From: Vasconcelosia minhoensis LEGE 07310
GTDB lineage: Bacteria > Cyanobacteriota > Cyanobacteriia > Phormidesmidales > Phormidesmidaceae
Reading direction: 5' to 3'
Assembly: GCF_015207255.1 (NCBI RefSeq)
Contig: NZ_JADEXG010000058.1
Span: 1 to 33,154, forward strand
DNA: 33,154 nucleotides
Below the pieces are notes generated by a model. The model was given only the letters and a program-made list of their open reading frames with translations. It had not been told where the DNA came from and did no database searches. Of this stretch, positions 5,654 to 32,230 are shown piece after piece. Numbering within the stretch: the stretch's first letter is position 1; every line of letters begins with the position of its first letter. A program made the position numbers and the translations under genes.

Positions 5654-6766
5654 ATGCGGCACGTCTTCGTTTTCATCGAGGTCCTAGGCGCTGAAGGGGG
5701 CATTCAATCTTATATTCAGGATGTGCTTAGCGCCTACGCTAGCCTCCCCAAAGCCGAAGCCGATGTGTTTCTGCTGAGAGATAGTCAAGCTGCACCCAAT
5801 CCGCTACGGCACTGTCGCCAGCTGCGGTTTCACTATTTCAAAAGCACGCGACCCATGCTGGGGCGCGTACGGCTCACGGTGGCGTTGATGTCATGCCTAA
5901 TGCGTTACCGGCCTGAGCATGTCTTTTGTGGCCATATCAATCTGGCCGTTATGGTCAACCGACTCTGCCGCTGGCTTAAGCTGCCCTATACCGTACTGAC
6001 CTATGGGAAAGAAGTGTGGGACCCGCTGCCACCCGCCGAGCAAGCTGCCCTGGCGGCGGCAGAACGCTTCTGGACAATTAGCCGCTACAGTCGCGATCTT
6101 GCCTGCCAGGCGAATCAGATTGACCCAGGCCAAGCCAGGCTTTTGCCCTGCGTGGTCGACGGCAGACAGTTTATGCCGGGAACCGCTCCCGATGCGCTGG
6201 TCGCTCAGTATAGCTTGAAAGAATCCCTCGTCCTAATGACGGTAGCGCGACTGTGGTCTGGCGATCCATACAAGGGGGTAGACATGACCATCCGGGCGCT
6301 GCCGCAAATTTTACAGGTTTTTTCCAATGTCAAGTATTTAGTTATCGGTCGCGGCGATGACCAGCCGCGGCTGGCACAGCTCGCTGAGGATTTGGGTGTG
6401 GCCGAGCGGGTTATCTTTGCCGGATTTGTGCCAACGGCGGCCCTTGCCGATCACTATCGACTCGCCGATGTCTACGTCATGCCGTCGCGGGAAGGCTTTG
6501 GCATTGTCTATCTAGAAGCCATGGCCTGCGGTGTTCCGGTCATTTCGGGCGATAGTGACGGTTCGGCTGAGCCGCTACAGGACGGACGGCTGGGCTGGCA
6601 GGTTTCCTACCGCGATGCAGACGCGATCGCTCAGGCCTGTATCGAAGCCCTCAAGGGCGAAGACTCGCGCTGCCAGGGAGACTGGCTCCGACAGGAAACG
6701 CTAAATCGCTTCAGTGCTTCAGCCCTAGCAGCGCGGCTGACCGAGCTGCTGTCAGAGACGGATTAG
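5654..6766 (+). CDS. Glycosyltransferase, GT4-type (GT-B fold)
   Basis: A 370-residue cytoplasmic glycosyltransferase. The N-terminal Rossmann domain carries the glycine-rich GAEGGIQSYI acceptor-side loop. The C-terminal donor domain has LMTVARLWSGDPYKGVDM, VIGRGDDQPRL and the E-x7-E motif in REGFGIVYLEAMACGVPVIS (about residues 279-298), typical of retaining GT4 enzymes that use nucleotide sugars. It starts 3 nt after the stop of the GMD-like gene, so the pair is one operon and this enzyme plausibly transfers the sugar made there. Donor, acceptor and final glycan cannot be deduced; no flippase or polymerase genes are in the window. Confidence 0.88.
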   Translation: MRHVFVFIEVLGAEGGIQSYIQDVLSAYASLPKAEADVFLLRDSQAAPNPLRHCRQLRFHYFKSTRPMLGRVRLTVALMSCLMRYRPEHVFCGHINLAVMVNRLCRWLKLPYTVLTYGKEVWDPLPPAEQAALAAAERFWTISRYSRDLACQANQIDPGQARLLPCVVDGRQFMPGTAPDALVAQYSLKESLVLMTVARLWSGDPYKGVDMTIRALPQILQVFSNVKYLVIGRGDDQPRLAQLAEDLGVAERVIFAGFVPTAALADHYRLADVYVMPSREGFGIVYLEAMACGVPVISGDSDGSAEPLQDGRLGWQVSYRDADAIAQACIEALKGEDSRCQGDWLRQETLNRFSASALAARLTELLSETD

Positions 6767-27157: not shown

Positions 27158-28558
27158 TTATTGCCCGCTGACTTTAGCTAGGCGGAGCCGAATGGGAAGA
27201 TAGCTGCCCAGCATTTTTCGGATAGACCGGCTGCGGCTTTCCTGCACAAAAAATAGCGGCAGAATACCTAAGCTGCGGAGGACAGCTGACAGGGCAAACA
27301 GGGCTGGCAGGCCGAAGCCCGGCAGCTCCGCCAAGAAGCCGCCTAAGGTCGTGCTGAGGGCGCCGCTGATGCCGATGACTGCCGCTGCGATGGCGAAATA
27401 GGCCGACTGCCGACCGACGGGAGCTAGCTCCATCTGAATATTCATCAGGCACAGCTCCAAAGCGGCAAAGGTTGCCCCTTGAAGCACGTGCAGCAGCGGC
27501 AGCCAGAGCCAGACTGAAAGCGGCTGGCTGCTAGTGCATAGCCACAGCAGCGGTACGATCGCGGTCAGCATACAGTTGAGCAGCAGCACTGGACGGTTGC
27601 CGACCCGATCGGCCCAGCGACCCCAGAGCATAATCATCAGCAGAAACGCCGCCGCCGAGATGCCGCTATAGAACGTCACCCAGCGCACATCCAGGCTGAG
27701 CTTATCGAGCAGGTAGAAATTGACAAAGGGCGTGCTGAGATTGATGCCAAAGGTCCAAGCGGCAAGAAAGAGCAGCAGGACGAGAAAATTTCGATCCTGC
27801 CAGAACCGCTGGGCCGGCGGCGAGGCTCGCTCAGTTGCGACAGCCGCCGCTGACTCTGCGTCAGTCTGAGGATTGACGTCGGCCATTAAAAACTGAAAAG
27901 CCATGCTGACCATCCCCGCAGCGACCGCGATCGCTAAGGCCACCCCATAGCCCTCTAGCTCTCCGCGGGGCCAGGCCGCGACCAGCCAACCCCCAAGGGG
28001 CAGGACTAGCAGCGCGGTCAAACTCGAAAGGCTTTTGCGCAGGCTAAAATATCGCCCCCGCAGCTGATTGGGAACGATGACTGCCATCCAGCTCATCCAG
28101 GCGGCATTTCCCAGAGAGTCCAGGATATAGCACAGCGCTAGGCAAATAATGGTGGCCAGAATTAGCCAGTGGGGGTCGAGGTGCCGCTGGCTGACCAGAA
28201 AAATTCCTGCCATTAGCCCAAGCCACAGTACCCGCGACAGGCCGTAGACCCAGAGGCAGTAGTGATGGCGGCTGGCTGATTTTTCCGACAGATAGGCCCC
28301 TAGCGGCTGGAGCAGGTAAGTCAGGAGTGGAATGGAGGTAAGTAGGCCAATCTCAGCCGCGCCGGCGCCAATCCCAATCAAGAAATTACTGATCAGGACG
28401 CCGCGGATAACGTTCTCAAAAACCGCTGAGAAAACACCGTCTAGCGTGGATGCTTGCAGACTGGTGCGAACCTGCTGCTTGGTCAGCTTCTCAGGGCCAG
28501 ACGACAGGGATGGGTCAGAGGCGATTTGGGAGCTGGCTTCGAGCTGGCTAGAAGTCAT
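27158..28558 (-). CDS. Major facilitator superfamily (MFS) transporter
   Basis: A 466-residue transporter with about 12 hydrophobic helices in two halves. The N-terminal 30 residues are polar, followed by LDGVFSAVFENVIRGVLISNF. The loops LGAYLSEKSASRHH and LWGRWADRVGNRPVLLLNCML fill the position of the MFS motif-A loops between helices 2-3 and 8-9. A polar cytoplasmic loop (about residues 215-235) separates the halves. No substrate can be inferred. GAGGTGAAGG just before ATG 28558 is a strong ribosome site. It is divergent from the broken azlC-azlD remnant. Confidence 0.88.
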   Translation of the reverse strand: MTSSQLEASSQIASDPSLSSGPEKLTKQQVRTSLQASTLDGVFSAVFENVIRGVLISNFLIGIGAGAAEIGLLTSIPLLTYLLQPLGAYLSEKSASRHHYCLWVYGLSRVLWLGLMAGIFLVSQRHLDPHWLILATIICLALCYILDSLGNAAWMSWMAVIVPNQLRGRYFSLRKSLSSLTALLVLPLGGWLVAAWPRGELEGYGVALAIAVAAGMVSMAFQFLMADVNPQTDAESAAAVATERASPPAQRFWQDRNFLVLLLFLAAWTFGINLSTPFVNFYLLDKLSLDVRWVTFYSGISAAAFLLMIMLWGRWADRVGNRPVLLLNCMLTAIVPLLWLCTSSQPLSVWLWLPLLHVLQGATFAALELCLMNIQMELAPVGRQSAYFAIAAAVIGISGALSTTLGGFLAELPGFGLPALFALSAVLRSLGILPLFFVQESRSRSIRKMLGSYLPIRLRLAKVSGQ

Positions 28559-28850: not shown

Positions 28851-29349
28851 GTGCAAAATCCTCGCCTAACCGAATCGCTAGCCGGGACCCGGGCTGTCAT
28901 GCCACTGGTGATCGGGGCGGCCCCATTTGGCATCATCTTTGGCACCTTGGCCCAGAGCAGCGGCCTTTCGGCTTGGAGCGCGATCGCGTTTTCGGCCGTT
29001 GTCTTTGCCGGTTCAGCTCAGTTCGTCGCCCTGGGGCTGGTCGCCGCTGGGACGGCGGTACCGCTGATTGTACTGACTACATTTGTGGTGAACCTACGAC
29101 ACCTGCTCTACTCAGCCAGCCTCGTACCCCACGTACGGCATCTGTCATCCCCGTGGAAAGCCCTAAACGGCAATCGTCGTGCCAGCGGTGCTGTTCCCCG
29201 CCGACCAGCTCTGGGTGAGCTATGAAAATGCGCGGCTAGTGGGCGCGATCGCGACGGTGGCGATCGCCTTTTGGCAAAAAAATCTGCTGGTAACCATCGT
29301 CGCTGGCATGGGCCTATTTCTGGCATACCAGATTTTGGTCGGAATGTAG
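28851..29349 (+). pseudogene. azlC'-'azlD remnant joined by an internal deletion
   Basis: From GTG 28851 the frame reads [48 protein letters not shown] and [20 protein letters not shown], the first half of an AzlC branched-chain amino-acid exporter subunit. After SSPWKAL (about 29160-29165) the AzlC part stops; the normal LAFWLTDE continuation and the rest are missing. In the next frame, bases 29167-29349 encode [29 protein letters not shown] and FWQKNLLVTIVAGMGLF, the end of the partner AzlD, to TAG 29347-29349. A deletion has fused the two genes out of frame; the present frame ends at TGA 29223-29225. No working exporter is expected. Confidence 0.82.
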
Positions 29350-29545: not shown

Positions 29546-32230
29546 GTGATTCAAGAATTTGATATTTCTATCACCGCTGTGGGCGACGATCGGTATTTGG
29601 TCCGTACTGAGAATGTTGCGTCGGGGGTGCCGATAGCCGAAGAACAGGTTTACTGGCCGGTCCGTCAGTGGCTGGAGCAAAGCCAGCGGCTAATGCATGA
29701 CCCACTGTTGGGGCTGCTTCAAGGGCAAAGCCTGCGGCAGTCTCAGCCAACCGGCGCAGCGCCGCTGCGAGCCGGTACAGCAGAGGGTTCCCTTTTTGCC
29801 TTAGGGCAAGAGCTATACAATAGCCTCTTTCAAGGATTGCTACGCGATAGCTGGCTGGCGGCCCAGGGCGTCGCGCAAAATCGGCAGAACCTGCTGCGGC
29901 TGCGGTTGGGAATTAAAGATGCTTTTCTTCAGCGGCTTCCTTGGGAAATCTTGCGGTCCGGCGATCGCCCCCTAGCCACTGGTACCGATGTCGCCTTCTC
30001 ACGCTACGATACCGACCTGCTCCAGGGTCGGCAGTCGGCCACCCTGCTGGTGCCTGACTTTAGCCAACCGCTGCGGATTCTGATGGTCGTGGCTTCACCA
30101 GAAGACCAGGCGCGGTTAGAGCTTTTGCAAGAAGTGCATCAGCTCCAGACAGAGCTGACGCCGATGGGTCATTTTCGCTCCGGCCCAGAGGGCAGTAACG
30201 GCAGCCGGCTTCAGCAGCCACTTGACGTCCGACTGACGCTGCTAGAGCAGCCTGGGCGGGCCGAACTGACCCAGGCGCTGGAGCAGGAAGACTACCAAGT
30301 TCTACATTACGCCGGGCATAGCAACCTCGGAGACACCGGTGGTGACCTGTTTTTAGTCAGCCGTCAGACCGGTCTGACCGAGCGGCTTAGCGGCGAAGAC
30401 TTGGCCGGTCTGCTAGTCAACAACGGTATTAAGCTGGCGGTATTCAACTCCTGTCGTGGAGCCTACAGCAGCTCGCAGGCATCGGAGCCGGGCTGGCAAG
30501 AGCAAAACCTGGCCCAGGCTCTGCTCGGTCGCGGGGTGCCTAGCGTCATTGCCATGGCTGAGCGGATTCCCGATGGCGTCGCGATCGCATTTACCCGGTT
30601 ACTCTATCGCAATTTAAAGCAGAGATATCCGATTGATTTGAGCCTCAACCGGACGCGCCAAGGGCTGATTTCGGCCTACGGATCTGATCAATTTTACTGG
30701 GCGCTGCCGATCCTCTATATGCAGCCCTCGTTTGATGGCTATCTCGCCAATCGGGCCGGCAGCCAGAGGGAATCCTGGGCCGATCCGTTTGCAGCCATTT
30801 TTGCCGATTCGGAGCCTCACTGGGAAGGAGCGAGGTCTCATCTACTGCCTCTAGTCGTAGATGAGACCTCGGAGCCGCCGACTGCTGCGGACGAACTGGA
30901 TCAAGCCATGGACATGGCTACAGAGCTAGAGGCGCTAGAGTCCCTAGAAACTATAGAAAGGCTTGATGCAGAATCCATCGAGCCGCCAGTACCGGAACTG
31001 GACTTTCTGGATGAGGCCGATATCAACAACTTAGTCAAACGGTTAGAACAGTCTGGACCAGAGCCAAGGCTCCCCAATTTTGGCGCTCAGGCCGAGGGAA
31101 CGGATCATCTCAGCGAAATCATCCAGCAGCTATCGCAGTCGGTTCCGGCTGAAGAAATGATGCCAGTCCAGCCGGACGAGCTGCTGCTACCTGAAGCCCT
31201 CGACCTCTCCGAGCAGGAGCTCTACGATCCGCTGTTTGAAGAGCCAGTCTCTGAAGAAAGTCCTACGCCTGCTGCCGCGGACCATACGACCGTTGACAAG
31301 ACGACAACGGCATTTGCAGCCGCTGAGGCAACCGATCGACCGGCTGGAACAGCGCGGCCTACTCCCCTACGTGCCGTGCTTGGTGGGTCTGTGCAGCCTA
31401 GACGCCGTCGGCTGGCGCTGATGACCATCGGTGCCGTCGCCGTAGCAACGGCCCTAGCTGCGGTAGGATTGACTGCTGTGCTCAACCGGGCTGACCGACC
31501 GACGGCTGAAACGCAGGCTTTACTCGATGGCATCACCGCCCCCAGTACCCAAGAAGCGCTGGGCCAGGTACAGCTTTCCCTGATCAATAACGATTTAGAT
31601 GCGGCCGCGATCGCGGTTAATACGCTCATTCGCCAGAATCAGCCCGCTGCTGCCCTGACTATGCTTATGTCGGCAACGCCCGAGCAGAAAGCAGATCCGA
31701 TTTTGGCATTTTTGACCGGGCGGGCGCAGTGGACCTTAGTGAAGCAGGGGGTTAGAGAATATAGCCCAGCGGACGCGCTGCGCTCCTGGCAGACCGCCAT
31801 CAGAGCCGAATCGGACTGGATGGAAATTTGGACGGCGCTGGGTTTCGCGCAGTACGCGGTTAACGATTTCGATCGGGCTGCTGAATCTTGGCAGCAGGCC
31901 ATTCGCCTAGCTGAGCAGCGCCCTGCCACCGAAAGCGTTGCCCTGTTCGGCCCCCGCCCGTCCCAGTACATCCTCAACGCCTATGCGGGGCTGGCCATGG
32001 CCAACCTTAAGCTGGCTGAGATTGAGTTTGAAGCTGAGGAACGGGCCGCCCTCTACGAGGAGGCAGTAGAGAGCTATTTGAAAGTATTTACCGAAGCCCC
32101 ACTGGCGTTTCAGCCCCAGGAACTCGGCAATAACTGGCTGTGGCTGGAGCCCGCGATCGATGACTGGCGCGCCGCAGAAACCCAGCTGGCCCCCTATCTG
32201 CCCGCAGAAAATCCGTTTGAGTCGCCATAA
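29546..32230 (+). CDS. CHAT-domain protein with transmembrane helix and C-terminal TPRs
   Basis: An 894-residue protein starting with GTG. Residues 1-170 form the helical N-terminal part usual in cyanobacterial CHAT proteins (FLQRLPWEILRSGDRPLATG). The caspase-like CHAT domain spans about 175-400; HYAGHSN gives the likely catalytic His258 and FNSCRGA gives Cys303. An acidic Glu/Pro/Ala-rich linker of about 215 residues follows. RRRR then a helix (ALMTIGAVAVATALAAVGLT, about 622-646) crosses the membrane, and a TPR-like region (about 690-880; ADALRSWQTAIRAESDWMEI, WTALGFAQYAVNDFDRAAES) ends the protein. With no signal peptide and basic residues before the helix, CHAT should be cytoplasmic and the TPRs outside or in the lumen. 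Protease target unknown. Confidence 0.9.
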   Translation: MIQEFDISITAVGDDRYLVRTENVASGVPIAEEQVYWPVRQWLEQSQRLMHDPLLGLLQGQSLRQSQPTGAAPLRAGTAEGSLFALGQELYNSLFQGLLRDSWLAAQGVAQNRQNLLRLRLGIKDAFLQRLPWEILRSGDRPLATGTDVAFSRYDTDLLQGRQSATLLVPDFSQPLRILMVVASPEDQARLELLQEVHQLQTELTPMGHFRSGPEGSNGSRLQQPLDVRLTLLEQPGRAELTQALEQEDYQVLHYAGHSNLGDTGGDLFLVSRQTGLTERLSGEDLAGLLVNNGIKLAVFNSCRGAYSSSQASEPGWQEQNLAQALLGRGVPSVIAMAERIPDGVAIAFTRLLYRNLKQRYPIDLSLNRTRQGLISAYGSDQFYWALPILYMQPSFDGYLANRAGSQRESWADPFAAIFADSEPHWEGARSHLLPLVVDETSEPPTAADELDQAMDMATELEALESLETIERLDAESIEPPVPELDFLDEADINNLVKRLEQSGPEPRLPNFGAQAEGTDHLSEIIQQLSQSVPAEEMMPVQPDELLLPEALDLSEQELYDPLFEEPVSEESPTPAAADHTTVDKTTTAFAAAEATDRPAGTARPTPLRAVLGGSVQPRRRRLALMTIGAVAVATALAAVGLTAVLNRADRPTAETQALLDGITAPSTQEALGQVQLSLINNDLDAAAIAVNTLIRQNQPAAALTMLMSATPEQKADPILAFLTGRAQWTLVKQGVREYSPADALRSWQTAIRAESDWMEIWTALGFAQYAVNDFDRAAESWQQAIRLAEQRPATESVALFGPRPSQYILNAYAGLAMANLKLAEIEFEAEERAALYEEAVESYLKVFTEAPLAFQPQELGNNWLWLEPAIDDWRAAETQLAPYLPAENPFESP

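Follow-up and report, generated by a model that had tools for sequence, protein, structure and literature searches.

A truncated azlC–azlD locus in the cyanobacterium Vasconcelosia minhoensis LEGE 07310, very probably the product of a single deletion

The window analyzed here is a whole contig (C16) of 33,154 bases from the draft genome of V. minhoensis LEGE 07310 (5.26 Mb in 161 contigs, with an estimated completeness of 100%). Two gene remnants lie side by side on its forward strand, the 5′ part of azlC at 28851–29166 and the 3′ part of azlD at 29167–29349. Upstream is a gene for an MFS transporter on the reverse strand (27158–28558; PF07690), and downstream is a gene for a HetF-like CHAT-domain protein on the forward strand (29546–32230; PF12770). 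The HetF-like protein scores 700 bits against NF045509, which is below the NCBIfam equivalog cut-off of 1200 bits. A promoter scan returned 0 sites, with 0.6 expected. The gene order MFS (reverse)/azlC/azlD/hetF is shared with G004, the nearest intact relative compared, whose MFS and HetF-like neighbors are 54% and 48% identical to those in the window. As judged from this common gene order, the azlCD remnant occupies the orthologous locus. The same neighbors in G004 thus point to an internal deletion at this locus and not to the insertion of a foreign fragment. In a contig scan, the closest intact azlCD loci with named records were mostly cyanobacterial; all relatives in that scan, which possibly did not include the window's own genome, were at most 71% identical and none belonged to the same species.

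The azlC remnant consists of approximately 105 codons, from a GTG at 28851 to the joint, and is 75% identical to the G004 AzlC over 103 amino acids. Its match to the AzlC profile PF03591 (28902–29162, E = 2.7e-28, above the Pfam cut-off) covers positions 1–87 of 137, and the rest of the domain is missing. The azlD remnant is shifted by one base from the azlC frame. It comprises 60 codons and a TAG stop (29347–29349), and it is 62% identical to the G004 AzlD over 58 amino acids. The match to the AzlD profile PF05437 (29167–29325, E = 4.2e-11, also above the Pfam cut-off) spans positions 45–97 of 99; the first 44 positions are gone, and the frame has no start codon of its own at the joint. When the azlC frame is translated past the joint, it gains an out-of-frame tail of approximately 20 unrelated residues (29163–29225, forward strand) that ends at a TGA (29223–29225). 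The initial annotation, which had described the N-terminal part of AzlC followed one frame over by the C-terminal part of AzlD, is borne out by both profiles. Both halves are clear homologues of the bipartite amino acid exporter AzlC/AzlD, known as AzlCD in B. subtilis, and they are in the usual azlC–azlD order. However, the remnant keeps just these parts of the two proteins, in different frames. BrnFE and YgaZH are further bipartite exporters of this type.

Alignment with the intact azlCD genes of relatives, as had been suggested, placed the joint at 29163–29167 of the forward strand. We estimated the size of the deletion from the 29 relatives in which both azlC and azlD were present in the retrieved stretch. 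Compared with these, the window lacks 523–643 nt (median 538); the difference from G004 is approximately 523 nt. Together with the intact genes of G004 at the same locus, this agrees with the earlier claim of a deletion between adjacent genes. The AzlC side can be traced to the motif WKAL (29163–29165) and the AzlD side from ACG GCA (29167 onwards). The string GCCCTA, previously proposed as a microhomology at the joint that was accompanied by a one-base shift, is indeed present at 29160–29165, but its role as a sequence shared by both parents in a single deletion is not supported. Each of the 29 aligned relatives has CTN or TTA as the codon directly ahead of the AzlD TAI motif, and the window reads TAA in that register. 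The A at 29165 must therefore be a T in the AzlD parent, which leaves no more than a single base (29166) that both parents could have in common. A longer string common to both parents would be possible only with a second, separate one-base event, which the earlier reading had half acknowledged. The exact ends of the deletion should be regarded as estimates because the nearest relative is only approximately 75% (AzlC) and 62% (AzlD) identical, and the genomes compared all come from outside the genus.

The organism's genes could in principle be intact, with approximately 520 bp lost through a collapse or a misjoin during assembly. The fragmented state of the draft and the lack of other decay in the stumps would fit such an error. 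However, the flanks appear to have no long repeat in common that might have led to a collapse (no more than 1 nt in register), and a query for the missing part derived from G004 found nothing on any other contig, although it detected the genes in 5/5 control relatives. An assembly artefact is thus improbable. The same search rejects a translocation of the missing part. Profile searches of the draft genome gave no match to a second azlC or azlD, and the remnant is the only AzlCD-type locus found, which answers the earlier call to look for another copy. Two marks of a pseudogene formed by deletion are present: a relative carries the intact genes at the corresponding locus, and the missing part does not occur elsewhere in the genome. 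A DNA search with the whole remnant recovered the joint in the window's genome only; it was absent from the other family genomes among the 63 searched, which rules out a common ancestral short form for these genomes. Relatives with the same short frame, which the initial annotation had named as evidence against a dead remnant if that frame was under purifying selection, are therefore not found in this set.

Of the residues that never vary among the 29 relatives, the window retains all 33 in AzlC and all 12 in AzlD (45/45). In a purpose-written two-ratio codon model, the window branch has an omega of 0.12, compared with 0.09 for the background. Setting omega to 1 on the whole window branch is 3.2 log units worse (2ΔlnL 6.4), which disfavors a neutral rate. 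The retained residues and the disfavored neutral rate suggest that inactivation came late relative to the long branch, with purifying selection probably acting over most of it. The event had been called recent from the clean codons on both sides of the joint. Its relative lateness holds, but the dating is weak and "recent" applies only in a relative sense because the branch is very long and synonymous change is near saturation. The kept residues and the low omega could also be taken to mean that selection maintains the AzlC or the AzlD stump as a reduced protein that still functions. A low omega is equally expected from a recent break, however, and a similar short form occurs in no relative; the AzlD frame moreover has lost its beginning and lacks a start codon where the two stumps meet. 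We regard a selected stump as very unlikely, and it is less likely still that the AzlC stump has been kept and is translated as a minimal membrane protein that has taken on a new role.

We are thus highly confident that azlCD is a pseudogene pair that arose by one deletion, that the break is recent relative to the long branch, and that it is one of several such losses. A single deletion of approximately 520–540 bp would have taken the 3′ half of azlC, the gene boundary, and the 5′ half of azlD, leaving two stumps in different frames. The product, if any, would be a truncated AzlC with approximately 20 junk residues, devoid of the rest of AzlC and of an AzlD partner. The break would postdate much of the branch toward the nearest known relative and would be one of several cases in which the group has lost this dispensable exporter. 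From the missing domains and the differing frames, we infer that the stumps are non-functional and the exporter inactive, in line with the dead product described earlier. As in other deletion-type bacterial pseudogenes, a deletion of intergenic scale has brought the stumps of two genes together at an orthologous locus, and the remnant shows nothing distinctive compared with these. It is ordinary pseudogenization and ordinary gene loss.

The initial annotation had expected the loss of a branched-chain amino acid exporter to leave a trace in physiology. This label is weak: B. subtilis AzlCD is reported as an exporter of histidine, asparagine, and 4-azaleucine, and a branched-chain phenotype is therefore an unsafe prediction. 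The genome carries two LysE-family proteins, which might export other amino acids.

Among the genomes compared, an AzlC match is present in 32 of 59, including the truncated copy in the window, and absent from 27 of the 58 others, some of which are incomplete. The occurrence of AzlC among relatives is hence patchy. In G010 (L128:7121–7664 with 6345–6713, on G010:C14), azlD looks intact and azlC is reduced to a scrap of its C-terminal end, a decay that looks like a separate loss. An upstream ORF there may be a decayed transposase fragment. In L133, L134, and L135 (G064, G076, and G067, respectively), azlC and azlD are 8–9 kb apart, and in L135 they are separated by several genes on the opposite strand. 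The two genes are thus not adjacent in every member of the family. In the literature collection searched, we found no paper dealing mainly with AzlC in cyanobacteria. The remnant records how one cyanobacterium lost its only AzlCD-type exporter, which is in itself of small general interest. Together with the decay in G010 and the patchy distribution, this loss suggests that the exporter is dispensable in the group.
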